Of a DNA stretch of 38,897 bases, positions 15,062 through 37,263 are shown in pieces. How positions within the stretch are numbered: position 1 is the stretch's first letter; every line of letters starts with the position of its first letter. This stretch comes from Prevotella sp. (GTDB lineage Bacteria; Bacteroidota; Bacteroidia; Bacteroidales; Bacteroidaceae), in assembly GCA_017460515.1 (NCBI GenBank), contig JAFUAY010000043.1, positions 1 through 38,897 on the forward strand. The letters run 5' to 3'. The notes beneath the pieces were generated by a model. That model saw only the letters and a program-made list of their open reading frames with translations. It did no database searches and was not told where the DNA came from. Made by a program: the position numbers and the translations under genes.

Positions 15062-15084
15062 ATGCATATTGAAAATTGACAATT

Positions 15085-16554: not shown

Positions 16555-16609
16555 CCCTACAGAAAAAGTAATAAACAGTAAATTATAAATGCAAAAATTG
16601 TAAATTATC

Positions 16610-18343
16610 ATGAATTGGAGTTCACATGAATTTATCTGGCTCGACTGGACTATTCTCGCAGTCGGTCTGTTAGGTGTGGTGGCTGCTGTATGGTATGCCA
16701 TTTGGAAAGACAAGAAAGCCCAACAGGGCGAAGACTCTTCAGCTTACCTCTTTGGTAAGGGAGAGCCTTGGTATGTAATTGGTATGGCTATTTTTGCCGC
16801 CAACATCGGTTCTGAGCACCTCGTAGGTCTCGCTGGTACTGGCGCAAAGGATGGTGTAGGTATGGCCCACTGGGAGATGCAGGGCTGGATGATCCTGATT
16901 CTCGGATGGCTGTTCGTTCCATTCTATCAGCTGCTGATCACGAAGATGGGTAAGATTATCACGATGCCCGACTTCCTGAAGTTCCGTTACACACAGCGTA
17001 CCGGTTCTTGGCTCAGCATCATCACCCTTGTGGCTTATGTGCTGACGAAAGTGTCTGTGACCGCATTCACAGGTGGTATCTTCTTCGAGTATTTGCTTGG
17101 CCTGAACTTCTGGGTAGGTGCAATCGGCCTGATTGCCGTTACTGCAGTCTTCACCGTGTTTGGTGGTATGAAGGGCGTGATGACGCTTTCTTCTATCCAG
17201 ACACCTATTCTTATTATTGGTTCGTTCCTCGTGTTGTTCCTCGGTTTGGCAGCTCTGGGTGCCGGTAGCATTACTGAAGGCTGGGGTATGATGATGGACA
17301 CAGCCCGCGCTATGCACGACGGCTACGGTATCAACCACATGTTCCACACCGATCCAGGCGATCCTATGTATGCTGAGTATCCTGGCTATGTAGTATTCCT
17401 GGGCGCATGTATCATTGGCTTCTGGTATTGGTGTACTGACCAGCATATCGTTCAGCGTGTGCTCGGACAGGTTCCCGGTGAGGATAATGCCGCTGTGATG
17501 GCCCGTGCTCGTCGTGGTACGATTGCAGCTGGTTTCTTCAAGATTCTGCCTTGCTTCATGTTCTTGATTCCTGGTATGATTGCTGCTGCTTTGGCTCAGC
17601 ATCCTGAGATCAACGGTTTCGTCATGGAAGATACCGACGCTGCTTTCGCCCTGATGGTGAAGAACATTCTGCCTGCTGGCGTGAAAGGTATTGTGACCAT
17701 CGGTTTCGTATGTGCTCTGGTAGCTTCTTTGGCAGCTTTCTTTAACAGCTGCGCTACGCTGTTTACTGAGGACTTCTACAAGCCCATGAAGAAGGGTATG
17801 AGCGAGGCTCACTACGTCTTCGTAGGCCGTACCGCTACTGTAGTCGTTGTGCTGCTGGGTCTGGCTTGGATGCCTGTGATGATGAGCCTCGGTTCGCTCT
17901 ACAGCTATCTGCAGGGTATCCAGTCGCTGCTGGCTCCTGCTATGGTTGCCGTGTTCACACTGGGTATTTTCTCTAAGAAGATCACTCCGAAGGCAGGTGA
18001 ATGGGGCCTTATCGGTGGCTTCGTAGTAGGTATGATCCGTCTGGTAACAAACGTTATTACCGATACGGGCAAGGCAACAATGGACGGTGCTTTCTGGGAG
18101 AACACCGCATGGTTCTGGCAGACCAACTGGCTCGTCTTCGAGTGCTGGCTGTTGGTATTCATCATTGCCTTGATGGTCGTAGTAAGTTTCTTCACTCCTG
18201 CTCCTTCTCAGGCTCAGGTAGACGCCATCACTTTCTCGGCAGACTTCAAGAAGTCTATCAAGGAGAGCTGGGGCGTTTGGGATATCGTAGGTACACTGGT
18301 CGTTGTTGGCCTCTGCGCTTGCTTCTATGCTTACTTCTGGTAA
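16610..18343 (+). CDS. Sodium/sugar symporter (SSS/SGLT family), probable arabinose uptake
   Basis: A 577-residue inner-membrane protein with about 14 hydrophobic helices. SSS-family features are 'AIFAANIGSEHLVGLAGTGA' in the first core helix, 'ITMPDFLKFRYTQRTGSW', and 'WYWCTDQHIVQRVLGQVPGED', typical of the glucose/galactose branch. It imports sugar with sodium. In related Bacteroidetes arabinose operons an SSS transporter sits directly upstream of araR, as here (17-nt gap). Having both this and an MFS porter in one operon is notable: they may serve different affinities or sugars. Confidence 0.92.
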   Translation: MNWSSHEFIWLDWTILAVGLLGVVAAVWYAIWKDKKAQQGEDSSAYLFGKGEPWYVIGMAIFAANIGSEHLVGLAGTGAKDGVGMAHWEMQGWMILILGWLFVPFYQLLITKMGKIITMPDFLKFRYTQRTGSWLSIITLVAYVLTKVSVTAFTGGIFFEYLLGLNFWVGAIGLIAVTAVFTVFGGMKGVMTLSSIQTPILIIGSFLVLFLGLAALGAGSITEGWGMMMDTARAMHDGYGINHMFHTDPGDPMYAEYPGYVVFLGACIIGFWYWCTDQHIVQRVLGQVPGEDNAAVMARARRGTIAAGFFKILPCFMFLIPGMIAAALAQHPEINGFVMEDTDAAFALMVKNILPAGVKGIVTIGFVCALVASLAAFFNSCATLFTEDFYKPMKKGMSEAHYVFVGRTATVVVVLLGLAWMPVMMSLGSLYSYLQGIQSLLAPAMVAVFTLGIFSKKITPKAGEWGLIGGFVVGMIRLVTNVITDTGKATMDGAFWENTAWFWQTNWLVFECWLLVFIIALMVVVSFFTPAPSQAQVDAITFSADFKKSIKESWGVWDIVGTLVVVGLCACFYAYFW

Positions 18344-18360
18344 TCATATTCTAAAAAGAA

Positions 18361-19035
18361 ATGACTTTCTATCAAGAACATTCCAAAGTCTGGGTGTCTG
18401 TCGACTGCATCATATTCGGCTTTGACGAGAACAAGCTGAAGGTGTTGATTGGCAAGCGCCAGATGGACCCCGGCAGGGGAGAGTGGAGCCTCTATGGTGG
18501 CTTTGTCGGTGCTGAAGAGAGCATCGACGAGGCTGCCGAGCGCACCCTTTCCGAACTGACGGGTATGAAAAAGATCTTCATGCGTCAGGTAGGTGCTTTC
18601 GGTAATGTGGACCGTGATCCGGGCGAACGCGTTATCTCTATTGCCTACTATGCGCTGATCAATGTACATGATTATAGTGAGAAACTGCGTAAGGAGCATC
18701 ATGCTGAATGGGTTTATGTCAACGAACTTCCCCAGCTTTATTCCGACCACAATGAGATGGTGATGAAGGCTTGGCGCATGATGAAGCAGAAGATGCGTAC
18801 CGAACCCATCGGCTTCCGTCTGCTGCCGCAGCTCTTTACGCTGACCCAGCTGCAGCGTCTCTATGAGGCAGTGGGTGGCGAGGAGATCGACAAGCGCAAC
18901 TTCCGCAAGCGCATCAAGGACATGGACTTCATTGAGAAGACCGAGCTCATTGACAAGATCACCTCAAAGCGTGGTGCCTCGCTCTATCGCTTCAACAAGA
19001 AGGCATATAAGGAAGATCCTAACTTTAAACTTTAA
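18361..19035 (+). CDS. araR: Nudix-related transcriptional regulator AraR (NrtR family)
   Basis: A 224-residue DNA-binding repressor of the NrtR type: a Nudix-like sensor domain at about residues 10-140 and a winged helix at about 150-224 ('[19 protein letters not shown]', '[14 protein letters not shown]'). The Nudix box '[20 protein letters not shown]' is degenerate: the REx2EE catalytic core reads R-T-L-S-E-L, so hydrolysis is unlikely and ligand sensing likely. In Bacteroides thetaiotaomicron the homologue in the same position represses arabinose genes and is released by L-arabinose. It is followed 5 nt later by araD. A target site is suggested upstream of galM. Confidence 0.88.
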
Positions 19036-19040
19036 TTACT

Positions 19041-19751
19041 ATGTTAGAAGAACTGAAACAGAAAGTATTCAAGGCCAATCTGGACCTTGTGAAACAGGGA
19101 TTAGTAATTTTCACGTGGGGAAACGTCTCAGGTATCGACCGTGAGAAAGGCCTCGTAGTTATCAAGCCCAGTGGCGTCAGCTATGACGAGATGAAAGCCA
19201 GCGACATGGTAGTCGTTGACCTGCAAACGGGAAAGGTGGTTGAGGGCGATCTGAACCCTTCCAGCGATACACCTACACACCTTGTATTATATAAGGCATT
19301 CCCCAATATCCAGGGCGTTGTTCATACCCATTCTACCTATGCCACCGCTTTTGCACAGGCAGGTCGTGATATCCCCAATATCGGTACAACCCATGCCGAC
19401 TATTTCTATAAGGACATCCCCTGCACCCGTGATATGACGAAGGCTGAGGTGGAAGGCCAGTATGAGCTGGAAACTGGCAATGTGATTGTCGACGAGATTC
19501 TGAATATCCGCAAGATCAACCCCGACCACACACCTGCTGTGCTGGTGAAGAACCACGGCCCGTTCTCATGGGGAACATCGCCCGACAACGCTGTTTACAA
19601 CGCCAAGGTTATGGAACAGTGTGCTAAGATGGCTTTTGTTGCCTTCTCGGTGAATCCCAACCTGACGATGAACCCGCTGCTCGTTGAGAAGCACTACAAC
19701 CGCAAACACGGTCCTAATGCTTACTACGGACAGAAAGGTCAGAAGCATTAA
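19041..19751 (+). CDS. araD: L-ribulose-5-phosphate 4-epimerase
   Basis: AraD converts L-ribulose 5-phosphate to D-xylulose 5-phosphate, the last step from arabinose to the pentose phosphate pathway. The 236-residue class II aldolase-like protein shows '[14 protein letters not shown]', '[11 protein letters not shown]', the zinc ligands in '[16 protein letters not shown]', and the third histidine in '[10 protein letters not shown]'. It follows araR after 5 nt. L-fuculose-phosphate aldolase and related enzymes share the fold, but length, the C-terminus '[21 protein letters not shown]' region and the operon context favour AraD. Confidence 0.93.
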
Positions 19752-19803
19752 GCGTTGAACGACGATACGCGAAAAGAAACATGAAGCGTTGAACGACAAT
19801 ACG
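19751..19803 (+). repeat. Imperfect 19-bp direct repeats after araD
   Basis: AGCGTTGAACGACGATACG at 19751-19769 recurs at 19785-19803 with one change. A few upstream bases (CAT, one variable base, A) are also shared. The spacing of copies is 34 bp. The pair lies in the 62-nt gap before the unknown 144-residue gene. Confidence 0.8.
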
Positions 19804-19813
19804 GACAGTACAG

Positions 19814-20248
19814 ATGGACGAACAGTGGCACAATCGCGACCTGAAGCTGAAGGCTGAAAAGAGAAGGGTGGGAGAGAGTGATACTACCACGGAGGAGTGG
19901 ACTCAACACGTTTGCGACCTGAAAGAAGGCGAGCTGACGCGGTGGGCCAAACATGGCGGTTTCTACCGTACTCCCTACGAAGGTCCTCACACCTATCGTA
20001 TTGTGTTTCTGGAGGCCAAAGAGTTTATCAAGCTCCGTCTGATGCGCGATACCGTTCAGGTCATCGATCTTGATGACTTCGGTGAGTGGACCTCAGGCTG
20101 GTATGAGATGGATGGCTACAGCTATCGCATCACCATCAACGTCATCACGAGTCTTTATGCTGTGAGCGAACTGCCTGAAGGAGTGCGCACCATGCAACAG
20201 CAGGACCATGATGCCTGGGACTATGCTGTTCGTAACGGACTGATTTAG
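19814..20248 (+). CDS. Hypothetical protein in the arabinose operon
   Basis: I do not recognise this 144-residue protein. It has no signal peptide or membrane helix and is rich in Trp, Tyr, Arg and Asp/Glu. The N-terminal third is charged and probably helical ('HNRDLKLKAEKRRVGESDTT'); the middle, from 'GFYRTPYEGPHTYRIVFL' to 'GYSYRITINVITSLYAV', alternates in a beta-strand manner; the end has 'QQQDHDAWDYAVRNGLI'. Its position between araD and araA, on the same strand with codon use like its neighbours, argues that it is real and co-expressed. A role in arabinose metabolism is only a guess from context. Confidence 0.7.
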   Translation: MDEQWHNRDLKLKAEKRRVGESDTTTEEWTQHVCDLKEGELTRWAKHGGFYRTPYEGPHTYRIVFLEAKEFIKLRLMRDTVQVIDLDDFGEWTSGWYEMDGYSYRITINVITSLYAVSELPEGVRTMQQQDHDAWDYAVRNGLI

Positions 20249-20303
20249 AGTTCAAAAGAATTATTTCTACTATTAATAACTAAAGACCCGTGCCCTGTTA
20301 CGG

Positions 20304-20334
20304 TCCTCTCCCATTAGGAGAGTTAGAAGGGGGC
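20304..20334. repeat. GC-rich palindromic repeat, copy A (before araA)
   Basis: CTCTCC (20306-20311) pairs with GGAGAG (20317-20322) around a CATTA loop, flanked by TTAGAAGGGGG. On the minus strand it reads as a run of C, then CTAACTCTCC, then the palindrome, the same layout as the copies at 26033-26061 and 33909-33958. It is intergenic, between the hypothetical gene and araA, but its frame is open and in phase with araA. Confidence 0.6.
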
Positions 20335-20343
20335 TCAATGATT

Positions 20344-21876
20344 ATGTTCAAAGATTTGGAGATTTGGTGGGTGACTGGTGCACAGTTGCTTTATGGAGGT
20401 GATGCAGTTGTAGCCGTTGACGGTCACTCAAAGGAGATGGTTGAAGGTCTGAACAAGAGCGGAAACATTCCTGTTAAGATTGTATACAAAGGCACAGCCA
20501 ACAGTTCGAAGGAAGTAGAGCAGGTGATGCTCGCTGCCAACAATGAGGAGAAGTGTATCGGTATCATCACCTGGATGCACACCTTCTCTCCCGCCAAGAT
20601 GTGGATCAAGGGCCTGCAGGCTCTGAAGAAGCCCATGCTGCACTTCCACACTCAGTACAACGCTGAGATACCCTGGGAGACCATGGATATGGACTTCATG
20701 AACCTGAACCAGTCGGCTCACGGTGATATTGAGTTCGGTCACATCTGCACCCGTATGCGTGTTCCCCGCAAGGTTGTCTGCGGCTACTGGAAGGACGAGA
20801 ACGCTCAGAAGCAGATTGCTGTTTGGGCTCGCGTAGCAGCCGGTGTTGCCGATGCTCACAACGTGCGCTGTCTGATGTTCGGTATGAACATGAACAACGT
20901 TGCCGTTACCGATGGCGACCGCGTAGAGTTCGAGCAGCGCATGGGCTACCATGTTGACTACTATCCTGTTTCTTCTCTGATGGAGTACTTCAAGCAGGTT
21001 ACCGATGCCGAGGCTGACGCTTTGGTTGAGGAGTACAAGAAGCTCTACACCATCAAGATCGACGAGAGCGGTGAAGAGGTTTACTGGCAGAAGGTGAAGA
21101 ACGCAGCCAAGGCCGAGATTGCCCTGCGCCGCATGCTGAAGGATGAGGGTGCTACTGCCTTCACCACCAACTTCGACGACCTGGGCGATGCTGATATCGA
21201 TGCTCCCGACTTCTGTGGCTTCGACCAGATTCCCGGTCTTGCTTCACAGCGCCTGATGCAGGAAGGTTACGGTTTCGGTGCTGAGGGCGACTGGAAGACC
21301 GCTTGTCTGTATCGCACACTGTGGGTCATCCAGCAGGGTATGCCTATCGGTTGCTCATTCCTGGAGGACTACACCCTTAACTTTGCCGGCGACCGCTCTT
21401 CTTGCCTGCAGAGCCACATGCTCGAAGTATGTCCGCTCATCGCAGTCGACAAACCCAAGCTGGAGGTTCACTTCCTCGGCATCGGTATCCGCAAGCAGCA
21501 GACCGCCCGTCTGGTGTTCACCTCAAAGACCGGCCGTGGTATCAAGGCTACCGTTGTTGACCTGGGCAACCGCTTCCGCCTGATCAGTCAGGAGGTAGAG
21601 TGCATCGAGCCGAAGCCCATGCCTAACCTGCCCGTGGCAAGCGCCCTCTGGGTTCCTCAGCCCACGTTCGAGATTGGTGCCGGCGCTTGGATTCTCGCAG
21701 GCGGTACCCACCACAGTGCCTTCTCTTACGACATCACCGAGGAGTACTGGGAAGACTTCGCTGAGATGCTCGGCATTGAGTATGTCAAGATCAACAAGGA
21801 CACCAAGACCTACGAGTTCAAGCAGCAGCTGCAGAACAACGAGGTTTACTACATGCTGAACAAGGCACTGAAGTAA
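20344..21876 (+). CDS. araA: L-arabinose isomerase
   Basis: AraA isomerises L-arabinose to L-ribulose using manganese. I take ATG 20344 ('MFKDLEIWWVTGAQLLYGGD'), which starts at the conserved N-terminus and gives 510 residues; ATG 20338 or GTG 20290 would add non-conserved residues read from the palindromic repeat. Seen motifs include 'TWMHTFSPAKMWIKGLQAL', 'HFHTQYNAEIPW', 'SFLEDYTLNF', 'CLQSHMLEVCP' and 'AGGTHHSAFSYD', which hold the metal-binding Glu and His residues. It ends the operon with a strong terminator. L-ribulokinase, normally between AraA and AraD in the pathway, is not encoded in the window. Confidence 0.95.
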   Translation: MFKDLEIWWVTGAQLLYGGDAVVAVDGHSKEMVEGLNKSGNIPVKIVYKGTANSSKEVEQVMLAANNEEKCIGIITWMHTFSPAKMWIKGLQALKKPMLHFHTQYNAEIPWETMDMDFMNLNQSAHGDIEFGHICTRMRVPRKVVCGYWKDENAQKQIAVWARVAAGVADAHNVRCLMFGMNMNNVAVTDGDRVEFEQRMGYHVDYYPVSSLMEYFKQVTDAEADALVEEYKKLYTIKIDESGEEVYWQKVKNAAKAEIALRRMLKDEGATAFTTNFDDLGDADIDAPDFCGFDQIPGLASQRLMQEGYGFGAEGDWKTACLYRTLWVIQQGMPIGCSFLEDYTLNFAGDRSSCLQSHMLEVCPLIAVDKPKLEVHFLGIGIRKQQTARLVFTSKTGRGIKATVVDLGNRFRLISQEVECIEPKPMPNLPVASALWVPQPTFEIGAGAWILAGGTHHSAFSYDITEEYWEDFAEMLGIEYVKINKDTKTYEFKQQLQNNEVYYMLNKALK

Positions 21877-24699: not shown

Positions 24700-27600
24700 T
24701 CATTGCTGCAGTTTTTTTAGCCGAAGCAGGGCTTCGAGGTAGTAATAGTCGGCATAGACAATGCTGGCATCAATCTCGGAACCAGCGGGATGGTGGCCAG
24801 TAGAGTGCATGAGGAATGAGACGTTCTTGTCGCGGCTTTGGTAGCGGGCGGTACTCAGGTCGCGGAGCATCTGTATGGCTGCATCGCGGTAGCGGTCGCC
24901 ATCTTTCACATATTGGCACAACTCCAGCAGGGCACTGGCAACGACACAAGCCGCTGAGGCGTCCTTAGGGGCCGCTATACCTCTTGAGTCATCCATATCC
25001 CAGATAGGCACCATGTCGTCGCTGGTTTCATGCAATCGCTTCAGATAGATGTCCGTTACCTTTTGGGCGAAATCGAGAAAACGTTTGTCCTTGGTGAACC
25101 GATAGACCATGGTGTAGCCATAGATGGCCCACGACTGCCCGCGGCTCCACATGGAGGAATCACTGTAGCCCTGATGCGTCACGCCCTTGATGAATTTGCC
25201 CGTAAGCGTATTATAGACAGCCACGTGGTAGCAACTGCCATCCTTGCGGAAGTGGTTCTCCATCGTGGTCTCTGCATGACGGACTGCGATCTCTCGCCAT
25301 TTTTCACTTCTCACTCTATCACTTTTCATTTCTTCTGCAGCCCACAGCAGCAGTTCCAAATTCATCATGTTGTCCATGATGGTGTTATGCCCGCCGTAGT
25401 CTTTCACATGGCGCGGCCAGCTAAGGATGGTTCCCACCTTATCATTAAATAATGTGGCCAGTGAGTCGGCTGCTTGCAGGGCTAACCGCTTATAGTGCTC
25501 GTTCTCTGTCACTTCATATCCCTTCAGCATGGAATTGATGGTGATGAAGCCGAGGTCGTGATCATAGACGGCCGTATCGATGATGGGCGCGATGGCATCG
25601 GTATATCCCGTAGCTGCCTTCTGTACGGCTTCGCTACGGTTGTAGTCGAATGCCATCCACAGGATGCCTGGCCAGAAGCCCGAACACCATTCTTCGGCTT
25701 TGGCCTTGCGGCAATTCCATGTTTGTTCGCCAGTGAGGATATTGCGTGGCATCATCGTAAAGTCGTATGGGCGCAAAGCCTCTAATGCCCTATCTACCTG
25801 TGAAGAGCAATAAGACAGTTGCTGGTTCACATTAAATTGTCCTATCTCTTTAGTAAACACCACGTCGCTGACGTGATTACCCACATACATCGGTACATAG
25901 TCGGCGGTGGCGTACCAACGCGGTTTGTCAGGCATATCATCATAAATAGTTTGTCCGTTGATCTTCAAACCTTCAAAGGTGACGTTTTGTACGCGATGGT
26001 CAGCGTCATAGCCGTTGATGATGGAAAGAGCGGCCCCCTCCCGACCTCCCCGAGGGGAGGAGTAGTAGCGGATGTTGCAGAAGGTGATATCCTCCACGCC
26101 TCGTCCGGGCGCTGTGCAATACTTTTGGTTATAACCCACTTTCACCTGACAGATGCTGCCCTGCTCAATCTGCTCAATGCGTATATTGTCAAAGAGTACG
26201 TCGCGTACGAGATTGCCGTCGCCGCAGTTAATGGCCAGACAACCTTGGTAATCCACCTGCGGCTCGGCCTGACCCAGGATATCAATGTTCTCATAGACCA
26301 GATGCTCGATGGTGTCGCCCACTTCGGGATTGCCATGTATGCCGATGAAGATGGGGTGCGCCACGTCGGCCCACAGCGTGCTGTTCCTCATGTGCACATT
26401 GCGGGTGGAGCCGCTGAAACCCTTGCGTGTGGCGTAGGCCGTGGTGCAGTCGTCGGAGTTGCGGCAGAACACTCGGTCGAAAAGAATATCGCAGCTTCCA
26501 CCAAAGACATTCAAGCCGTCGCCCCATTGTGGATGAGAGATGCTACGAACATCATGAAGCGTCACGTTCTTGGATTCGCCAATGGGGCAGGTGTTGACGA
26601 TGAGACCGTCAATCAGCACGTTCTTCGAACGGTGAATATGACAGCCCTCGTAGCCACGAACGGGACGGGCCACGCCGCGCCCCAGGATGCTCACATTTTC
26701 GGCATCATTGATGGCGAAGGTTCCTGTGAAATAAGCACCTCCAGCAAGATACACCGTGGTATTCGAGCCAACAAACATAGTATCCTGTTGATGATAGAAA
26801 CCAGGAGCGTAGTACTTAAACTCTCGTCCTTGTGCTTTCGCCTCCCTTTCTGCCTTCTCTTTGCTTACGGGAGGTTTCGAGGTGAACACCAGTAGGTTAT
26901 TGGTGATGTCACCGTCCAATTCCAGGCTCACGTTCTCGGGCTGGAACAGCAGGAATTGCACCGTCGAATCGTTCTGCACGTTGGCAATCGTGCCGCGATA
27001 GTCGGGACGGATGCGGGCCTTCTTGAATTTCTTGTTTTTGCTAAGCACCTTCACAAACACATCGCCCGTGAAGTCGAAGAAGGCGTAGGAAATCTCGCTA
27101 ATGGCGTGCTTGCCGCTGCCAGTCGAGGCATTCACCTTCGCCATATATGTGTCTATTTTCGTCCACTCCTTGCTGCCGCGCGGCTGGATAAACACATCGT
27201 AGTCATGCTTCAGAGGCGCACCTTCAGGGGCTGGATACGTAAACACCTGATGCAGTTTCGTACCTTCCTTCACACCCGGCACCCGCACCTCGCGACTCTC
27301 CCCCTTGCGCTCTGCCTTGGCTTGCAGTGCCAGCACCTTTTTCGTGTACGGCATCTTCAGCCCCTTCGCCTTCACATAGTGGTCGTAGGGTTTCTGGTAG
27401 ATGTCCCACAGCTTTCCGCGTCCCATCTGCCCCGGTTCCGTCCAGTCGCAGTAGAGACCAGTCAAGTCTGTCCATGTCTCGAAAGGCACGTCGTTGCCCA
27501 GATTGTAGCGGGCCGTGTACTCAAAGCCCTTCATCAGCCGGTTGTCGAGTGCCCCCCAGAGGTCATCGCCCTGCTGCCAAGCCATCTCGCAGATGTCGGC

Positions 27601-28200
27601 TATCGCCTCTAGTCCCAACTGCGCGTGTCCTTGGTCGCGTCCTGTCTCCTGACACTGTCCCGTCTCACTGATATAGCGCGGCAGTGAGCCGTTGTCATAA
27701 ACGTGCAGGTAATAGTCGATGGCCTGACGGTACATCACCGTATCCTCCATAACTATCGCCGCCGCCATGCGGAAGCGGTTGACAATCGCACCCCAGTTGC
27801 CGTTGGCGTAGGGACTGTCCGCCTCGAATTTGTTCATCGTTGGCATCATCGCCCTTCTCAGCATAGTTTCCCACGCTGGTGTCTTTTGTTCCTTCTCTAT
27901 TATCATCGCTCTGCATAGCCAGTATCCCTGAATCAGGCACAGCGGTGCATCATGACCATCAATCCTCTGCAACTTCTCCGTGTATGCATTGATGATGCGC
28001 AGTGCTTCATCGTGCTTTCCTTCCTTGGCGAAGTCCCACGCCGCTTTCATATCGCGTTCACTGCCGCCCTTCGATTTACGGAACTCGCCATCGCGTGCCA
28101 CCACCTCGTAAGGCCCGGCCATCTTATACTCCTGCGCGAACACTGGGGCTAATGAATGACTTGCGCAGAGAAACGCGAGTGTGAGAAAAAACTTTTTCAT
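24700..28200 (-). CDS. Three-module secreted enzyme: alginate-lyase-like, GH28/GH49-like beta-helix, GH88
   Basis: An 1166-residue protein with a signal peptide (1-22, 'SLAPVFAQ'). Module 1 (about 25-300) is an alpha-helical alginate-lyase-superfamily domain with 'NGNWGAIVNRFRM' and 'CQETGRDQGHAQLGLEAIADI', matching the same motif in the neighbouring 1427-residue protein. Module 2 (about 305-790) is a GH49-N-like beta sandwich followed by a right-handed beta-helix of repeated 'NVxIxG'-type coils ('NVSILGRGVARPVRGYEGCH', 'WGDGLNVFGG', 'RNSDDCTTAYATRKG', where Asp pairs may be catalytic). Module 3 (about 795-1166) is a GH88 unsaturated glucuronyl hydrolase with candidate catalytic D943 ('IMDNMMNLELL') and D1014 ('GYSDSSMWSRGQSWA'). 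One chain could thus cut a uronate polymer by lyase and hydrolase action and remove the resulting unsaturated uronic acid. Its ATG overlaps the stop of the 66-residue gene. Substrate is inferred. Confidence 0.85.
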   Translation of the reverse strand: MKKFFLTLAFLCASHSLAPVFAQEYKMAGPYEVVARDGEFRKSKGGSERDMKAAWDFAKEGKHDEALRIINAYTEKLQRIDGHDAPLCLIQGYWLCRAMIIEKEQKTPAWETMLRRAMMPTMNKFEADSPYANGNWGAIVNRFRMAAAIVMEDTVMYRQAIDYYLHVYDNGSLPRYISETGQCQETGRDQGHAQLGLEAIADICEMAWQQGDDLWGALDNRLMKGFEYTARYNLGNDVPFETWTDLTGLYCDWTEPGQMGRGKLWDIYQKPYDHYVKAKGLKMPYTKKVLALQAKAERKGESREVRVPGVKEGTKLHQVFTYPAPEGAPLKHDYDVFIQPRGSKEWTKIDTYMAKVNASTGSGKHAISEISYAFFDFTGDVFVKVLSKNKKFKKARIRPDYRGTIANVQNDSTVQFLLFQPENVSLELDGDITNNLLVFTSKPPVSKEKAEREAKAQGREFKYYAPGFYHQQDTMFVGSNTTVYLAGGAYFTGTFAINDAENVSILGRGVARPVRGYEGCHIHRSKNVLIDGLIVNTCPIGESKNVTLHDVRSISHPQWGDGLNVFGGSCDILFDRVFCRNSDDCTTAYATRKGFSGSTRNVHMRNSTLWADVAHPIFIGIHGNPEVGDTIEHLVYENIDILGQAEPQVDYQGCLAINCGDGNLVRDVLFDNIRIEQIEQGSICQVKVGYNQKYCTAPGRGVEDITFCNIRYYSSPRGGREGAALSIINGYDADHRVQNVTFEGLKINGQTIYDDMPDKPRWYATADYVPMYVGNHVSDVVFTKEIGQFNVNQQLSYCSSQVDRALEALRPYDFTMMPRNILTGEQTWNCRKAKAEEWCSGFWPGILWMAFDYNRSEAVQKAATGYTDAIAPIIDTAVYDHDLGFITINSMLKGYEVTENEHYKRLALQAADSLATLFNDKVGTILSWPRHVKDYGGHNTIMDNMMNLELLLWAAEEMKSDRVRSEKWREIAVRHAETTMENHFRKDGSCYHVAVYNTLTGKFIKGVTHQGYSDSSMWSRGQSWAIYGYTMVYRFTKDKRFLDFAQKVTDIYLKRLHETSDDMVPIWDMDDSRGIAAPKDASAACVVASALLELCQYVKDGDRYRDAAIQMLRDLSTARYQSRDKNVSFLMHSTGHHPAGSEIDASIVYADYYYLEALLRLKKLQQ
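26033..26061. repeat. GC-rich palindromic repeat, copy B (inside the three-module enzyme)
   Basis: A CCCCCTCCCGA tract leads into the 16-bp palindrome CCTCCCCGAGGGGAGG (26045-26060). It is in frame inside the beta-helix module and adds residues about 715-723 ('SPRGGREGA') within a coil. It shares the C-run, spacer, palindrome layout with copies A and C. Confidence 0.7.
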
Positions 28201-28473: not shown

Positions 28474-31400
28474 TCATTTCACAACTACCTTACGTCCATT
28501 GATAATATAAACGCCTTTCGGCAATTTGCTAGTTAACAAATTACCTTTAATAATTTTACGACCACTGAGGTCAAAACATTCACTATTTGACGATTTACTA
28601 TTTACTATTTGTTCTATGCGATCAGGAGCGGGACCTTGATAAGTTAGGGTGAAGTTGTCCCATACGAGCCAGGTGGTGCCGCTGGTGGGTTCTTTGATGC
28701 CAAGGGTGAGCTGACCCTCGTCACCCACGGTAACATTAACGGATAATTGGCCGTAGGTGGCATCACTCGCCATCTTGTTTCGCTGGGTGTCGAAATCGGA
28801 CCCTGCACAACTCTGCTTGACAACGGCTTTGGTGGTTTCGCCGCCAGCCGTGGCAAAGAGATAGCCAGTGTTGCTGCCCTCGCCGTTGGCCATCTGGCAA
28901 GTGACGGTGTAGGAACCTGCAGGGAGGCCAGTGAGCGTCTGCTGCATAGAGAAATCTGTACTGTGCCACACTTCAGCGGCTCCATTGAAGCGTTGATTGC
29001 CCCATGTACCTGTGACAGTCCATCCTGGCCAGCCGTTGCCAGCAAAGTCGGGGGAAGCGAGGAGAGGGGTGATGTCGATGGGCGTCTCGGCTGCGGAACC
29101 GCCGAGTACACTGACATAATCCGTATGGAAGCGGGCACGGGGGATAGCAAAGATTTGGAAATGGCCCACTTCTGCCCCGATTTTGTTGCAGGCCAGTTCC
29201 TCACCGTCACAGTAGCCGTTGGCGGGAGTCCAGAGGCCGAGCCAGTTTCCAGGGTAAGTGCCGTTCTCGATGGTCCACGCTCCGCCAGTATTCTCTGGAA
29301 GGAAACGTGCCCACGAAATGGCGTAAGGCTGATCGTGTGTGCGCCATTGTTGGGGTGCATTGTACTCCGTCTGCAGTAGGAGACCATCGTAGTCGATGTT
29401 GCGCATAACGTAGCCACCGTCGAAGGATTCAAACTGGAATACAGTGCGGAGGTCTGTCAGAGGGTCGGTTGGGCTCTGATAAAAGAAGGCCCTGTTTCCG
29501 TTGTGGGGTGCATTAGCCCGAAGACCAACGAGGAGGTCGGCTTCATCGCTGGCGATGACAAAGTAGCTGCCTGCCGCAACCGCTTCGGAGAGCTGCGCTT
29601 CGCTGTCAATGCGGGTGTAGCCGTGTTTTGAGGACAGGAGGTCGTAGTAACTGTAGGCTGCCGCTTTGACATCTATGGTGAAGGTGTAGGTTTTGTCAAG
29701 ATAGTTGGCTGTGTAGGTGAGAGGGGTCCCGTCGGGCAAGCCGATGGGCACACTGACGGTGAGGGTGCGGCCATGGGTGCCATCCTGCCAGGTAACCTCC
29801 TCGGGCAGGGCATTGTCGGGCAGGGTAAGGCCGAGGATGACTTCCGTACCAGCGAAGACAAGGGCGCTGGTCTCGCCATCAGTCTGTGTGCCACCGATGG
29901 AAATAAACGGACGGGCAGGAATAACATGGAGGTGGAACTGCTGCTCATTGACATAACCGCCCTGGTTCACATACTGGCAGGTGTAGGTGCGGTCTTCAGT
30001 GATGTTGGGAATGACGATTACGCTGCTGCCCATAGCGCCTGTACTCCAGCGGTAGTCATCGGTCCAGCCGGAAGAGTTGCCAAGATAGAGGATTACGCTT
30101 TGGCCGTAGAGGACAGTCTGCTCCGTAGCACTGTAAATGGTGCCATCAACGGTAATCTCGGGAACAGTAACGTCAGGCACGGCATCGCCTGCAACAGCGA
30201 TGGCGAAGCTCTGTTCCGAGGTCGTGCCGTTGGCTGCGGTGTAGGTAACGCGATAAATATGACTGCGGTCGGCCTTTACGGTGAGCTGTCGAGTGGTCTC
30301 ACCAGACTCCCATTGCCATAGACCAGTGTCCTCTGTGTCAGCGGGCAACTGGGGAATAAGGGTGATGTCGGCTCCGTCGGCAGGGATGGCACGGGTCTTT
30401 TCAATCCTATAAGTATATTTCAGTCCGCCGAGGTTGGTCTGGTTCTTGTAAGTGACACCTTTATATATGATATCACCGCTAAGTGGCGTGATGGCATCGG
30501 CCTTCTCGATGGCTGGTCGCCAGTGGGTAAGCGTGGAGAAGCCCAGATGGTCGAAGCCGCCGCTGTTCTGGCTGTAGTTGCCCCCACCGCCATCAGGACA
30601 TATCTTCGCGCTTGCCGCTTCAGAGTATTGCATCTTGACACCGCGCAGACCTTCGTAGTAACCGATGAGACGATCCCAATAAGGACGGTACTCGCCTGAG
30701 CCGCCCGTGTTGACACCTGTCATGAGCCAACCGGCACCCATCGTGCCACGACAGTCGGCATAGTTGTAGTTCTTCCATGGCAGCGAAGCGGCATCCACGC
30801 CTCCGAAATTGCTGGCCGCCACGAACTCTGCACCGGCAGCAATGCGGTCATCCATGTAGGCGAAGAGATCATCCCCCTGTGAGAAGCCCGTCTGACAGAT
30901 ATCGACAGCCAGTCCGAGTGCCATCAGCGCGTGGCCTTGGTCACGGCCACTCTCCTGCATTTGTCCGAGATAGCCAAAGGGACCACGTTCGTCGGGCATA
31001 AGGACTGGTACGAGGTTGCCCAAGAACTCATCACATCCGTCATTGAGAATCTGCGAGAGCGTAGTGCGGTTGGGGTTATAGGTGCCGACGTGGTCATATT
31101 TGTAGAAAGAAACACCCTGATTGTAGATGTGAACGTCATCACAGAGAATACCGATACTCATAAGACAGAGGGCGTTGCAGAGGCCCCAGTTGCTCCAATA
31201 ATGTCCCGGGCGCTCGCCAAGGTTGGCATAGCGGGCGTTGAGCCACGTGTCATGACGGCGGCGCAGGAAATCGAGGGCCACGGGATACCACGTGGTGAGC
31301 ATATAGCGCTTGAACTCCTCGAAGTCAGTACGGCTCCAACCGTCATAGTCACGTACCAACTCAGCAGCCTGTGCGAAGCCGTAACCATATAGCCCGGCGG

Positions 31401-32757
31401 CGAGGCTCTTATTGGTGTCACCACCTACGTATTTGTTGTTGTGTGCCCAGTTCATCAAGGCACGCACCGCATTGTCTGCATGGGCACGGTCGCCGCTGAT
31501 ACGCCATCGCAAGGCGTTCTGGAAGGCGATGGCTGCTCCACGTGCGGCATTCATATAATTTTGCCCACTGCTGCCGCCACGTATGATTTCCCAGACGGGC
31601 CACGTTGCCGTGCCGCTTTGCGAGTATTCGTTCTGGCACAGAATCTCGAATGCGCGCTTGATGCGGGTGTCACCGGCAGCCAAAGCTGCCTTGATGCGGT
31701 TAATATCAGCCTCTGTGACCATGCCACCAGGATGACGGAAGCCGTGGCCTTCGGGTGTGAAGATGCTGGTCTCGGCCATCGTGAAGCCTGCGGTCTTCTT
31801 GGTCGAGATGAGGGCTGAGGTAAGGTTCTTCAGCCGCAGGTCAATCAGAGTCTGTGATGCGCGCCCGCGTACAATTTCTTTCTCTGAGAGGTTCCGCTCA
31901 TCGCGCAGTTGGCCGATAGCCCCGTCAGCGTATGCAGTAAGATCGGTAGCAAGAAAGTCCTTTACTTCATCGAGCTTCGTTTGCAAGGCTGTGAAGTCGC
32001 CTGACACGCCGTAGCGGTAGGACGTCTCCAGCTCGTCGGCTACGGCAGCGAGGGCTGTTACTTCGGCATCGGCCAGAGCTGCATCGTAGAGACGGAAGTC
32101 GTAAATGAGAGTCTGTTTCAGATAGCTGTCACCAGAAAAAGGAGCACGACCAATCCAGCAGTATGCAGGATCGGCTGTGAACGTCTGCTTCAGTACTGGC
32201 ATTCCGCTCTGACTGAGCATCTGACGACCATTCAGAAAGACCTGCCCAGTAGTGCCACGCTGGCGATAGAGAAAGTGAATCCAGCGGCCCTTGGCAGATT
32301 CGGTTCCTGTCTCCATGCCTGTTTCATGGTTGTAGCCACCTGTGGATGTGGCCATACGCTGGGCGTTCAGGCGATATGCCGTATATGGAGAGGCATCCGC
32401 AGTGTTGGCAGCCAACTGTGAGAAGCACCACAGGAAATAGCCTGCGCCGGAGAGCGAGGCATTCTCGTTGACACGGTAATACACGGAGACGGTAAAGTCC
32501 TCCAGCTGGCGGACGATGCTGCCAGCGTTCTTCGTCAGGTCGAAATAGCCAGAGGCGTTGCCCAAGTCAAGGACGTGGAAGTCACCCATCTCTACTACCT
32601 TAGCTGCCCCGACGGTCTTGGCGGTGATACCGGAAATATCGTCTTTTACACTTGTTCCAGATACATTTTCAAAGTCGAAACGCATCTTCAGATTTTCTTC
32701 CTGTGCCCCTGCAGTCATCGAGAAAAGGAGCATGACAAACCAAAGTTTTGTTTTCAT
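28474..32757 (-). CDS. Large modular secreted alginate-lyase-like protein (LamG, lyase, Ig-like, CBM-like)
   Basis: A 1427-residue exported protein. In order: signal peptide (1-19); LamG/concanavalin-like domain (about 25-235, 'FTVSVYYRVNENASLSGAGY'); helical linker; alginate-lyase-superfamily alpha/alpha toroid (about 335-750) with 'GHYWSNWGLCNALCLMSIGI' (N523) and 'QESGRDQGHALMALGLAVDI' (R605, H609) as candidate catalytic segments; three Ig-like repeats (about 770-1030), each with a W-x-(S/D)G-x3-R/S-x-L/V-x-V pattern; a probable beta-trefoil-like module (about 1040-1205); a carbohydrate-binding jelly-roll-like module (about 1225-1375); and the tail 'LPKGVYIINGRKVVVK'. The family (PL5/PL38-like) cleaves uronate polymers such as alginate or glucuronan. 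Surface attachment or secretion by the tail is inferred. Closest partners are the two genes downstream and the divergent regulator. Confidence 0.82.
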   Translation of the reverse strand: MKTKLWFVMLLFSMTAGAQEENLKMRFDFENVSGTSVKDDISGITAKTVGAAKVVEMGDFHVLDLGNASGYFDLTKNAGSIVRQLEDFTVSVYYRVNENASLSGAGYFLWCFSQLAANTADASPYTAYRLNAQRMATSTGGYNHETGMETGTESAKGRWIHFLYRQRGTTGQVFLNGRQMLSQSGMPVLKQTFTADPAYCWIGRAPFSGDSYLKQTLIYDFRLYDAALADAEVTALAAVADELETSYRYGVSGDFTALQTKLDEVKDFLATDLTAYADGAIGQLRDERNLSEKEIVRGRASQTLIDLRLKNLTSALISTKKTAGFTMAETSIFTPEGHGFRHPGGMVTEADINRIKAALAAGDTRIKRAFEILCQNEYSQSGTATWPVWEIIRGGSSGQNYMNAARGAAIAFQNALRWRISGDRAHADNAVRALMNWAHNNKYVGGDTNKSLAAGLYGYGFAQAAELVRDYDGWSRTDFEEFKRYMLTTWYPVALDFLRRRHDTWLNARYANLGERPGHYWSNWGLCNALCLMSIGILCDDVHIYNQGVSFYKYDHVGTYNPNRTTLSQILNDGCDEFLGNLVPVLMPDERGPFGYLGQMQESGRDQGHALMALGLAVDICQTGFSQGDDLFAYMDDRIAAGAEFVAASNFGGVDAASLPWKNYNYADCRGTMGAGWLMTGVNTGGSGEYRPYWDRLIGYYEGLRGVKMQYSEAASAKICPDGGGGNYSQNSGGFDHLGFSTLTHWRPAIEKADAITPLSGDIIYKGVTYKNQTNLGGLKYTYRIEKTRAIPADGADITLIPQLPADTEDTGLWQWESGETTRQLTVKADRSHIYRVTYTAANGTTSEQSFAIAVAGDAVPDVTVPEITVDGTIYSATEQTVLYGQSVILYLGNSSGWTDDYRWSTGAMGSSVIVIPNITEDRTYTCQYVNQGGYVNEQQFHLHVIPARPFISIGGTQTDGETSALVFAGTEVILGLTLPDNALPEEVTWQDGTHGRTLTVSVPIGLPDGTPLTYTANYLDKTYTFTIDVKAAAYSYYDLLSSKHGYTRIDSEAQLSEAVAAGSYFVIASDEADLLVGLRANAPHNGNRAFFYQSPTDPLTDLRTVFQFESFDGGYVMRNIDYDGLLLQTEYNAPQQWRTHDQPYAISWARFLPENTGGAWTIENGTYPGNWLGLWTPANGYCDGEELACNKIGAEVGHFQIFAIPRARFHTDYVSVLGGSAAETPIDITPLLASPDFAGNGWPGWTVTGTWGNQRFNGAAEVWHSTDFSMQQTLTGLPAGSYTVTCQMANGEGSNTGYLFATAGGETTKAVVKQSCAGSDFDTQRNKMASDATYGQLSVNVTVGDEGQLTLGIKEPTSGTTWLVWDNFTLTYQGPAPDRIEQIVNSKSSNSECFDLSGRKIIKGNLLTSKLPKGVYIINGRKVVVK

Positions 32758-32954: not shown

Positions 32955-35123
32955 ATGAAAGGTAAATTCTGTATCTTGTTGTGCAGCATGTTCGTATGGG
33001 CTCTTTGCGTCAGCGGGCAACGTCATTGGATGGTGGCCGATGGGCTTCCGACGGGTGAGGTGCAGCAGATTGTGGAACTCCCCAACGGCCAGATGCTCGT
33101 GAACTGCGAAGGAGTATTTTGTCTTTCGAATGGACACTCCTTCGACGTTGTGTCCTGCAACCAAATCCTGGCATATAAGCTTTCCCAATACACCAATCGA
33201 TATGGCCAATTGTGGGAAGGAGACTCTATTTTATGGCTGCGAGACTTTTATCGAATCTACCGCTTTGACGCCCACCAATACAGATTTGTAAAAACCGACG
33301 AGAACGGATTGGGCAGACCCTTCCTGAAAACCATCCTTGCCGACAAGGCTGACACGCCACAGCCAACAGCACAACAACAACACGTCATCGACTCACTCCA
33401 TATACATGACGCTACCGTTGCCATAACTGACCGTCAGGGCGGTCTATGGATAGGCACTCGCACCAATGGTATCGTCTATCAGCCGCCACATAGGACTAAG
33501 CCTATGATACACACTGGGAATGATCCCTTGATCGGACAAACACGAAGTGCTTCCCTGCGCAACGGACAGACTATGTTTGTCATACAGCTACACGATGGAC
33601 GACAGTTGCGCTGCGATTCGCTCTGCCATCTGGCTTATGCGCTCCAAGACCACACAACCATATCACTAAACGCGAAGCTACCGGCTTTGAACCAATATCG
33701 TTACATGGTGGGCGCCTGCCCAATGGATGGGGACTGGGTGGCGGTCTATACGCAAAACGGAGCTTTCCTGCTCGACACAAAGGCCGACACGCTGGCATCG
33801 TTCCCCTATGTTTCTGAGATTGAGCGTTACAGCAGTAAATATAACTGTATGCTGAAGGATGGCGATGGACGGTTATGGGTCGGTACGCAGAACGGACTGT
33901 TTAGCCTCACCCCTAACCCCTCTCCCGTGGGCGAGGGGAAATGTGTGGGCGAGGGGAACTTTAATTACCTTTGCCAACGTGCGTCTGGGTTGGCGAATAA
34001 CTGCATACGCAGCTTAGTGATGGATGCTGACGGACACGTCTGGGCAGGTACGTCGTTTGGCATTTCACGCATCACACCTTCTGTCGTTAATTTGAGTGTA
34101 GATGACGGCATCCCTGCCACAACGATGATGGATCGGTCTGCAATTCTCTTGGACGATGGACGACTGATCTTTGCTATCGGTGGTGGATTGGCCGTATCTT
34201 TCCGCCCCGACGAACAATTAGGTGAGGAAAAGCCACTCCCCGTCGTCATTACCAACATCACAATAAACGGAGAAACGGTTGAAAGTTCGACGCTTTCCCT
34301 TTTAGGCAACCTTTCCTACAAACAGAACTACCTCTCATTCCAGTTCTCAACCCTCAACTACGCCACACCCTCGCACGACCGCTACCGTTACCGCATCCGG
34401 AATTTGGAAAGTGAATGGAACACTTGCAGTGATGGGGGTGGACAATGTACAGCCATCTATAGGGCGCTACCCCCAGGCGATTACACCTTTGAGGTACAGG
34501 CTGCTACGGCATCGAGCGAATGGGGAACTGTCACCACATTCCAATTCGCCATACGTCCACCTTGGTGGCTCACATGGTGGATGAAGACAGCCTATGGCCT
34601 GGCTACCATCCTGATGATTGTGGGTCTCATTAGCGTCTATCTGCAGAAAAAGAATGCAAAATTGAAGCGAGAGAATGATGAACGAGTGAACCACCTCTTT
34701 GAGTTGCGCGAGGAAGCCCGACACCAATTTGCTGAGTCGGCTAACATCTCTCCCGACAAGATAGCCATCAATGCCGAAGAGGAAAAGCTTGTATCTCAGA
34801 TGCTAAAAGCCATTGAAGCACATATCGATAACGAGCAATACAACGCTGACCTGTTGGCACGCGATGTCGCCATGAGCCGTGCTTCGCTCTACAAAAAGTT
34901 GCAAAACATGCTCGGCATTACACCTACTGATTTCATCCGAAAAGTGCGCCTGAAGCGAGCTGCCCAGTTGCTTACCGAATCCCAGCTCTCCATCAATGAA
35001 ATTGCCACTCATGTCGGTTTCGCCACTGCTCGCAACTTCTCTTCCTCTTTTAAAAAGATATTCGGTGTTACCCCCTCGGAGTACCGCAATAGAGAAGAAA
35101 ATGCTAAAAAAACGCATAATTGA
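32955..35123 (+). CDS. Membrane-spanning sensor with AraC DNA-binding domain, lacking kinase and receiver
   Basis: The 722-residue protein has a signal peptide (1-21), a periplasmic Reg_prop beta-propeller (about 22-425; 'GGLWIGTRTNGI', 'GRLWVGTQNGLF', 'GHVWAGTSFGIS'), a Y_Y_Y domain (about 460-533), one transmembrane helix (about 542-563), a charged coiled-coil-like linker (564-607), and an AraC-type double helix-turn-helix (about 608-712; 'LARDVAMSRASLYKKLQNML', 'INEIATHVGFATARNFSSSF'). Hybrid two-component systems of Bacteroidetes have the same ends but carry a histidine kinase and receiver between; here nothing of either is present. The signal would pass directly through the membrane to a tethered DNA-binding domain. 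It is divergent from the lyase genes and is their likely regulator, sensing an oligosaccharide. Residues 319-335 are encoded by a palindromic repeat. Confidence 0.88.
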   Translation: MKGKFCILLCSMFVWALCVSGQRHWMVADGLPTGEVQQIVELPNGQMLVNCEGVFCLSNGHSFDVVSCNQILAYKLSQYTNRYGQLWEGDSILWLRDFYRIYRFDAHQYRFVKTDENGLGRPFLKTILADKADTPQPTAQQQHVIDSLHIHDATVAITDRQGGLWIGTRTNGIVYQPPHRTKPMIHTGNDPLIGQTRSASLRNGQTMFVIQLHDGRQLRCDSLCHLAYALQDHTTISLNAKLPALNQYRYMVGACPMDGDWVAVYTQNGAFLLDTKADTLASFPYVSEIERYSSKYNCMLKDGDGRLWVGTQNGLFSLTPNPSPVGEGKCVGEGNFNYLCQRASGLANNCIRSLVMDADGHVWAGTSFGISRITPSVVNLSVDDGIPATTMMDRSAILLDDGRLIFAIGGGLAVSFRPDEQLGEEKPLPVVITNITINGETVESSTLSLLGNLSYKQNYLSFQFSTLNYATPSHDRYRYRIRNLESEWNTCSDGGGQCTAIYRALPPGDYTFEVQAATASSEWGTVTTFQFAIRPPWWLTWWMKTAYGLATILMIVGLISVYLQKKNAKLKRENDERVNHLFELREEARHQFAESANISPDKIAINAEEEKLVSQMLKAIEAHIDNEQYNADLLARDVAMSRASLYKKLQNMLGITPTDFIRKVRLKRAAQLLTESQLSINEIATHVGFATARNFSSSFKKIFGVTPSEYRNREENAKKTHN
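33909..33958. repeat. GC-rich palindromic repeat, copy C (inside the membrane regulator)
   Basis: CCCCTCTCCC-GT-GGGCGAGGGG (33917-33938) is a palindrome with one mismatch, preceded by CACCCCTAA. Its right half GTGGGCGAGGGGAA is repeated 18 bp later (33945-33958), adding one more six-residue unit. In frame it encodes 'LTPNPSPVGEGKCVGEGN' in a propeller blade. Confidence 0.75.
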
Positions 35124-35205: not shown

Positions 35206-35254
35206 ACCAGAAGTTGCACCAAAATGGGGCAGAAGTGGTATTGGAAGTTGCACT
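35202..35254. repeat. TTGCACC repeats downstream of vapE
   Basis: TTGCACC at 35202-35208 and 35214-35220, and TTGCACT at 35248-35254; TGCACC also occurs at 35161-35166. The 13-mer AGAAGTTGCACCA (35209-35221) has an exact inverted copy at 37479-37491 on the other side of vapE. Confidence 0.7.
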
Positions 35255-37263
35255 TACTTTTCACGGAGACTGAGATAGTAGCCGTGGATGCCGTTCTGCG
35301 AACCGTCGGGGATGTGCTGTCGATGGAGGATACGACCCAGTTTGCCCAAGGTAGGTACGTCGCTCTTCATGAGGACGCTGTTCAGGTGATGCTGAATATC
35401 GGTGGCGGTCATGAAGTGTTCTTTGCAGCGCTTGGCAGGAACAAAGAGGTTGTTGATGACATCTTCAAGTGAGGTGTGTTGCTGGTACTGAGCATTATGC
35501 TCCATGATTTCGCGTTCGTCATCGTTGTCGAACCAGTACTGTGCTCCATGTTCTATTTCCCAAACAGCTTGGGCATACATCTGGCGGTAGTTGATGTCGC
35601 CTGACATGTCGACCTGCTCCTTGACTTCAACGCAAAGGTAGCGACGTGAACCAGTGGGGTCGGTGAGCGGATGGTAGTTGTTGGTGGTAGCGATGAACGA
35701 GCAGAGACGGGGCTTCATGGTGTAGTGCTCGCTGCGCATCTTGCGTGTCTGCACATCTTTCTCCGTGAGCAGACGCTTGATTTTTGCCTGTTCATCGTCG
35801 GTCTTACCGTCATACTCTTCGATATTTACCAACCACATTCGTCCTAAGACGCGCTCCACCTGATCGGGATTGTCCATCTTGATATCATCCATGAAGTATT
35901 CTCGGAGGGAGTAGGGCAGTATGTTCTTGCAGAAGACGGTCTTCTTCATGGCTTGCGGACCGATAAGTAGCGGTACCATCGAGTTGCCGTAGTCACGGCT
36001 TTTACGCATGGCTTGTGCTACGACAGCCAATAGCCAGCGATGGAAGAAATGAGGCCAGCGGTCGAAGTCGGTCTTCAGTCTTTGCGCGTACATTTCAATA
36101 TAATTATGCTGCTGGTCCCATTCTCCTACGCCGCCCAGGAAGTCGAAGATGGGGTTATAGCGTTTGATGAGCGATGAGTTCACATACATATTAATGTCGA
36201 TCAGCCATCCATGTCCGCCCTCCAGCATTTCCTCGAAGGCTATGCGACGCAGTTCGCGGTCATCCAACGGCTTCCACGGATAGAAGGTCTGGTCGTTCTG
36301 TCGATATTCCACCATCTCCTTCACCTCGTTGTAGCGCAGCTGATAGCGTCGCTCAAAGAAATTGCGGATGGTGCGTGCAATGCGTTCCTTCTGGTTCATC
36401 TGAGAGATAGTTTTTCCATGATAGTCGTTAGCGTAGGCGGCACGGAATATCTTGCGCACGAGGTCTTCGCTTTCATGGAAATGCCAGTCCCAAAGTGTAC
36501 GGTGTACGGAGGCTTCTTCGTCCAAATGTGCCTTATGGCAATAGCCGGCCAAAGTGCAGAGCGCCTGTTCCTCGTCTTCTTTTCGTGGATGCTCTTCAAG
36601 GGCTTTTCTGAGACAGGTATAGTACTCCAGTTTCATGTATTCCTGCTCCTCAGCCGAAGGTCTGTCATTGATGTTCCCGCTGTCGGTCACCTGTGTTTGG
36701 CGATAGGGTCGCAACAGGTCGTCATCCTTGATGATTACGGGAAAAGGTTGAGCCGCTTCATTTGCATGCACCACGGGATCGAAGCTTGTGGCGCATCCTT
36801 TGTTCAGTTGTAGTTCCTCCGACATCCACTCACAGCCTATTAACGACTGATAGACAACGGCTACTTGCTGCTGTGCATGTTGCAGCAGACTGACGTATTC
36901 CTCTACGGATGTAGCCTCATGCCCATCGGCAAAGGCCACATGTACTACGATGTGCAACTTGTGACGGTTGATACTGCGATAGGCCAGTACGGTATAGGGC
37001 AACTGCATGGCCTGCTGTTGCCACTCGCTGATGGCCTGCTCTGACTCGCTGACAGCTGTCAGTTTCAGGAGTCCTGTAAAGTGCTTTACGTCATCAAAGC
37101 CGCCTCGTCCGAAGGTGGCGCTGAACATCAGCATTGGCAATTCCTTGCCGTCAAGCATTTTCTCACTGTGCATCCTTTCTACTTCGGCTTGCAGGGTGGT
37201 GGTCACCGGATGCTTCATCAAGCCGTCTTTCATTGCTGCTTTTGTTATCTTCATCATCATCAT
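35254..37263 (-). CDS. VapE/VirE family protein with BT4734-like N-terminal domain
   Basis: A 669-residue cytosolic protein of the virulence-associated E family, common in Bacteroidetes and in mobile elements, where it resembles primase-helicase replication proteins. A BT4734/VirE_N-like domain lies at about residues 40-190 ('MLMFSATFGRGGFDDVKHFT'). The VirE P-loop ATPase spans about 350-620: 'VPLLIGPQAMKKTVFCKNIL' is the Walker A position, but the usual second Gly of GxxxxGK(T/S) is Lys; 'RMWLVNIEEYDG' is the Walker B position; 'CSFIATTNNYHPLTDPTGSR' is a sensor-like segment. The start is ambiguous: four consecutive ATG codons stand at 37263-37252. It is flanked by inverted GCACC repeats and lies beside an M15 peptidase, a pairing seen in other Bacteroidetes. 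Its role is unknown. Confidence 0.85.
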   Translation of the reverse strand: MMMMKITKAAMKDGLMKHPVTTTLQAEVERMHSEKMLDGKELPMLMFSATFGRGGFDDVKHFTGLLKLTAVSESEQAISEWQQQAMQLPYTVLAYRSINRHKLHIVVHVAFADGHEATSVEEYVSLLQHAQQQVAVVYQSLIGCEWMSEELQLNKGCATSFDPVVHANEAAQPFPVIIKDDDLLRPYRQTQVTDSGNINDRPSAEEQEYMKLEYYTCLRKALEEHPRKEDEEQALCTLAGYCHKAHLDEEASVHRTLWDWHFHESEDLVRKIFRAAYANDYHGKTISQMNQKERIARTIRNFFERRYQLRYNEVKEMVEYRQNDQTFYPWKPLDDRELRRIAFEEMLEGGHGWLIDINMYVNSSLIKRYNPIFDFLGGVGEWDQQHNYIEMYAQRLKTDFDRWPHFFHRWLLAVVAQAMRKSRDYGNSMVPLLIGPQAMKKTVFCKNILPYSLREYFMDDIKMDNPDQVERVLGRMWLVNIEEYDGKTDDEQAKIKRLLTEKDVQTRKMRSEHYTMKPRLCSFIATTNNYHPLTDPTGSRRYLCVEVKEQVDMSGDINYRQMYAQAVWEIEHGAQYWFDNDDEREIMEHNAQYQQHTSLEDVINNLFVPAKRCKEHFMTATDIQHHLNSVLMKSDVPTLGKLGRILHRQHIPDGSQNGIHGYYLSLREK

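Follow-up and report, generated by a model that had tools for sequence, protein, structure and literature searches.

Can a single protein chain both make and remove an unsaturated uronic acid? A gene on a 38,897-nucleotide stretch of Prevotella sp. DNA (GCA_017460515.1, contig JAFUAY010000043.1; the whole stretch is referred to here as the window) raises this question. Its product was read in a preliminary description as a secreted chain of three catalysts, namely an alginate-lyase-type toroid, a GH28/GH49-like beta-helix hydrolase and a GH88 unsaturated glucuronidase. All three kinds of module are indeed present, but in the first the catalytic His and Tyr of canonical toroid lyases are missing, and the three-catalyst claim thus stands only in part. 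The answer matters in either case. An active module 1 would mean that a different catalytic pair is open to toroid lyases and would add a family to a well-studied fold, with one chain carrying out both steps; an inactive one would be a clean example of a lyase fold retained in the role of a partner. In both cases the locus offers a testable way into the digestion of a uronic-acid plant glycan by rumen Prevotella, and it is present in a cultured strain, Xylanibacter brevis ATCC 19188. The source genome (2.27 Mb, 65% complete) has its relatives in Prevotella and Xylanibacter, many of them from ruminant samples.

An intact three-module reading frame

The reading frame is intact, with an ATG start and no internal stops, and the module borders found here (Table 1) match those first proposed to within a few residues. 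An NCBIfam search at E ≤ 0.1 gave no match for the fusion or for the neighbouring toroid protein. By eye, the chain begins with a signal-like segment, as do most of the relatives compared that carry modules 1 and 2 (six rows have no clear start), and it has no C-terminal sorting tail; "exported" is therefore a better word than the original "secreted".

Table 1. Position and basis of the features of the fusion gene and of two nearby genes in the window
Feature	Position	Strand	Basis
Whole fusion ORF, 1166 aa	24700..28200	-	Translation and full-length relatives
N-terminal signal-like segment, residues 1-22, abutting module 1 directly	28135..28200	-	By eye
Module 1, residues 23-300, PF05426-type toroid without N-terminal hairpin	27301..28134	-	Pfam, profiles, alignments
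Module 2, residues 303-786, beta-sandwich-like N-terminal part and GH28/GH49-like right-handed beta-helix	25843..27294	-	Profiles
Module 3, residues 791-1166, GH88	24703..25830	-	Pfam, PDB matches, alignment
1427-aa neighbour: LamG (84-233) and fuller toroid (Pfam match 400-648)	28474..32757	-	Pfam, alignment
Y_Y_Y / AraC-type regulator, divergent	32955..35123	+	Pfam; relative in 17/58 related loci

Two trivial origins of the architecture were ruled out: a truncation of this one gene, as most Prevotella fusions share its starting point immediately behind the signal-like segment, and a unique or assembly-made fusion, as the arrangement is present in a cultured isolate and in further genomes.

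A comparison with the DNA of 13 genes revealed a mosaic structure of the fusion gene. DNA identity to L048 (RUG036) is 98-100% over residues 1-425 and 1060-1166, and identity to L063 is 99-100% over residues 791-1055, while for residues 426-700 the best identity among these genes is no more than 85%. Allele recombination or chimeric assembly could each account for this pattern.

Catalytic residues of the GH88 and beta-helix modules

PF07470 (GH88) matches module 3 at residues 832-1153 (E 3.1e-10, 40 bits against a curated cut-off of 26.6). Similarity extends over the full domain to unsaturated glucuronyl hydrolases of Pedobacter heparinus (3wiw, E 3.9e-73) and S. agalactiae (3anj, E 4.7e-50), others matching at E values of about 1e-46 to 1e-50; unlike in 3wiw and 3anj, the GH88 domain here stands at the C-terminal end of a chain of three modules. 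Both catalytic aspartates are shared with these enzymes. D882 and D943, whose positions were counted on the alignment, align with the GH88 catalytic pair, D115/D175 in the S. agalactiae enzyme, and are identical in 26/26 aligned relatives, as are W838, H881, Q1010, W1018, R1020, Q1022 and W1024. The GH88 catalytic residues are therefore intact, as originally described.

Module 2 was assigned as GH28/GH49-like because of its homologues and its profile; the window sequence alone matches no Pfam family in this part, PF00295 included, even at E ≤ 1. At that threshold, PF00295 is matched by 26 of the 29 aligned relatives, PF03718 by three and PF17433 (the GH49 N-terminal Ig domain) by two. Similarly, the profile of the module reached 3jur (E 6.1e-16), 5olp (7.2e-15), 7b8b (4.2e-12) and the dextranase 1ogm (1.6e-8) in the PDB. 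The catalytic Asp triad and His of GH28 sit in NTD, GDD and GHG motifs. Module 2 has in common with the clan GH-N hydrolases (GH28/GH49) three Asp and a His, D561, D583 and D584 being identical in 29/29 relatives and His615 in 27/29, which bears out the view of this module as one that has kept its catalytic residues. It differs from them in its silence in Pfam and in the absence of RIK, the carboxylate-binding motif of pectin-cleaving GH28 enzymes, the aligned stretch being C-L-A-I-N. We read module 2 as a putatively active GH28/GH49-like hydrolase with a substrate other than pectin. The invariance or near-invariance of the GH88 and GH28-type catalytic residues favours the three-catalyst view; what speaks against it is module 1, in which the canonical His and Tyr and the first hairpin are missing.

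Module 1, a shortened toroid with an altered active site

PF05426 (Alginate_lyase) matches residues 121-234 of the fusion at E 8.6e-8, with a score of 32.4 bits against a curated cut-off of 22.2, the match covering only the last 115 profile positions (156-270 of 275), and it is matched at E ≤ 0.1 by all 42 aligned homologues of module 1. Single-sequence PDB searches with modules 1 and 2 gave chance matches only, and profiles were needed. A profile of module 1 reached the PL5 lyase 1hv6 at no better than E 0.46, and a profile of the wider family, to which fuller toroids were added, matched 3nfv at E 1.4e-6 and 1hv6 at E 1.8e-4; the PL38 enzyme 8bdq was matched only at E 0.26, in a stretch of about 40 positions. 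With 14 collected PF05426 ORFs, two of which are strays, the hhalign probability was 97.5 in the case of module 1 and 98.3 in that of the wider family; with toroids that we label PL17-like, it was 4% and 94%, respectively, so the wider family may have a distant kinship to the latter.

The module had also been described as short for a toroid. Indeed, it falls short of stand-alone relatives and of the neighbour's toroid by about 50-55 residues at the N-terminus and by two short segments, because the Prevotella fusions have lost an N-terminal hairpin that is kept in the stand-alone relatives and in one distant fusion (L134). In most of the fused relatives compared the signal-like segment runs directly into the toroid. 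In L091 and L096, module 1 is split over two reading frames. Another toroid protein has a different beta-helix behind its toroid (L119 by Pfam; L122 and L124 by eye).

Conserved residues of module 1 include N135, W136, E185, R188, D189, H192, E227, Y228 and H274, with D213 a further invariant acid in addition to D189 and E227. Trp136, Glu185, Arg188, Asp189 and His192 are identical in 42/42 homologues, fused and stand-alone alike, and Asn135 in 41/42, the remaining one being a gap. The neighbour's toroid shares this NW / QExxRDxxH arrangement. In the wider family, the QExxRDxxH motif is found in all 30 rows, the neighbour's among them, and the Trp is nearly invariant (in L138 it is Gln).

For comparison with canonical toroid lyases we relied on the catalytic residues of A1-III and its kin, which are consistent with a Tyr-His-Asn triplet. 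Such a triplet is named in PMC12088678, and the use of Y298 and H243 is given for PL38 in PMC13169297. Asn135 and Arg188 align with the neutralising Asn and Arg of 3nfv, A1-III (1hv6) and the collected PF05426 set, a likeness to these lyases in two active-site residues. Unlike them, module 1 carries Trp136 at the catalytic His in all alignments. Its His192 falls on the catalytic Tyr in the alignments with 3nfv and the collected set, and on H245, one place before Y246, in that with A1-III. Neither a catalytic His beside the neutralising Asn nor a catalytic Tyr was therefore found in module 1, and its lyase activity is one that we infer. On this evidence from sequence profiles, module 1 appears to be either a lyase whose site has been rewired or a pseudo-lyase.

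If it were a pseudo-lyase, the shrunken toroid would only bind a uronic-acid glycan and present it to module 2, and GH88 would act on the products of the neighbouring lyase. The replaced His and Tyr, the lost hairpin and the fuller toroid of the same family encoded next to the fusion all fit this possibility, which we nevertheless think unlikely to a degree, as the polar signature is kept in every one of the 42 homologues, stand-alone ones included, and is common to the fuller toroids. Such invariance suggests a site that works differently rather than one in decay. The changed catalytic pair and the invariant acids D189, D213 and E227 could also serve another uronic-acid chemistry on the toroid, such as epimerisation or hydrolysis, in which His192/Asp189 or Glu227 would be the catalysts. 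We regard this as quite improbable; PDB and Pfam searches gave no homologue with such an activity, and pairing with GH88 suits a lyase better. A lyase with a His base has a precedent, if by analogy: according to PMC8377490 and PMC13169297, the Rha-GlcA lyases of PL27 and PL42 free rhamnose from gum arabic via beta-elimination at GlcA, and in PL42 the base is His. This comparison is an analogy and not evidence for the fusion itself. We tentatively propose, as a possibility with less than even prospects, that module 1 and the neighbour's toroid represent an unclassified polysaccharide-lyase family in which the base has changed from Tyr to His and the usual His to Trp, and that the fusion works self-sufficiently in the periplasm on one plant glycan, cleaving it, taking off the unsaturated cap that this leaves and hydrolysing the bond that follows.

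Distribution, gene neighbourhood and proposed role

The fusion recurs in the genus. Matches were present in 95 of 398 genus genomes searched, and a single alignment ran from module 1 to module 3 at 15 places in 13 of the 398, the window's own included; three of these places begin at residue 120-155. In G421 all three modules lie in one frame, as two matches. Modules 1 and 2 alone in one alignment were commoner, occurring in 26 further genomes, 14 of which had a GH88 match within about 400 bases. At most two candidates were scored per genome, and the fusion counts are therefore lower bounds. At the level of the order, module 1 or 2 had matches in 39 of 393 genomes, nearly all as separate parts. 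Among the 52 related loci that we gathered are those of the cultured X. brevis ATCC 19188 (L049), which carries the full three-module order, and X. muris (L053). A quick tree was built from 64 GH88 rows, 26 of them fused; the distribution of the fused rows on it requires three changes (shuffled mean 20.2), only one of which is forced by the starred branches. Few origins are therefore indicated, and splitting or regaining of the fusion is possible. The fusion is under purifying selection: in comparisons of the window gene with nine relatives, 19 of 27 module comparisons were computable (8 were saturated) and 17 of these gave a dN/dS of 0.055-0.121, and module 1 gave 0.18 and 1.34 against the two closest relatives, on dS values of 0.08 and 0.01.

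The pairing of lyase and GH88 is also found in simpler fusions of the genus. Among 21 long-frame genus loci checked, 17 encode a canonical PF05426-type lyase fused to GH88 (L009, L179-L185, L187-L193, L196, L197), with GH2 and malectin domains added in L196 and L197. These proteins likewise combine the two activities' domains in one chain; in contrast to module 1, their lyase is canonical, with NNH and GY motifs in 17/17, and they have no beta-helix. L009 is the one canonical lyase-GH88 fusion included in the tree, and its GH88 lies far from the GH88 of the three-module protein. The source genome also encodes a 1699-aa GH28-GH88/105 fusion (L177), which resembles the three-module protein in that a PF07470 domain comes after a beta-helix hydrolase, and differs in its strong PF00295 and PF07470 scores and in that no lyase module was found. 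The preliminary statement that no described enzyme with the three-module order was known agrees with our literature search, which gave none among the matches listed, as judged by titles and abstract openings. GH88 is also fused to DUF2264 (L016) and, in the source's own genome, to DUF4861 (L178).

Genes near the relatives point to a plant glycan. In 58 related loci, which are not independent, differ in length and in some cases come from one genome, the full-toroid neighbour was present in 35, GH43 in 18 (16 alone, two fused to GH88), a separate GH88 in 11 and GH97 in nine. Relatives also have GH127, GH3, GH2 and AXE1 genes, and GH43-GH88 fusions lie at L054:3564-6218 and L073:14216-17026. A host or microbial glycosaminoglycan-like polymer would be the alternative target: the nearest solved GH88, from P. 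heparinus, is heparin-specific, and it points to another substrate. Set against it are the GH43, GH97 and GH127 genes, the GH43-GH88 fusions and the absence of sulfatases from 20 chosen ORFs scanned in related loci, and we consider such a target very improbable.

By eye, the neighbour's C-terminal tail resembles a T9SS sorting tail, as do those of 16 of 20 picked neighbour-type proteins, and no such tail was seen in the proteins with modules 1 and 2 compared. Our guess is therefore that the neighbour works outside the cell and the fusion in the periplasm. Two neighbour-type toroid proteins (L056:5550-9851 and L090:6201-9935) have tails that look dockerin-like rather than T9SS-like.

We give an even chance to the reading in which the fusion belongs to a small Prevotella/Xylanibacter glycan-utilisation locus and is a three-catalyst enzyme, exported and probably periplasmic, that acts by a lyase, GH88 and GH28-like route. 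The sequences show what the modules are, how they are conserved, that selection on them is purifying and which genes lie around them; the activities, compartment and order of action that we infer would be as follows. The LamG-toroid neighbour, surface-anchored or secreted, would open a uronic-acid plant glycan, and the imported pieces would reach the fusion. Module 1 would carry out beta-elimination at a uronic acid that is 4-linked; Asn135/Arg188 would neutralise its carboxylate, and His192 would take over from the usual Tyr as base. Module 3 would take off the resulting 4,5-unsaturated uronic acid through the GH88 hydration mechanism; and module 2, as an inverting GH28/GH49-like hydrolase without RIK, would cut a neighbouring alpha-linkage. 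Periplasmic processing of a uronic-acid plant glycan is the likely role, and as a guess the substrate bears GlcA and arabinose, for example arabinogalactan or a gum. Alginate is unlikely, because of the GH43, GH97 and GH127 genes and because the His missing from module 1 matters for alginate activity, as reported for one PL35 enzyme in PMC12088678.

Further points against the three-catalyst reading are the two higher dN/dS values of module 1 and the P. heparinus origin of the nearest solved GH88. In addition, no SusC/SusD was found among 15 window ORFs scanned, the other ORFs being at most 512 aa and short for SusC. The window also contains an arabinose operon at 13865-21876, with AraA, a class II aldolase, an AraR-like regulator and transporters. 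Adjoining the divergent regulator, at 35254-37263, is a protein with VapE-like and BT4734-like domains, of a kind found on mobile elements.
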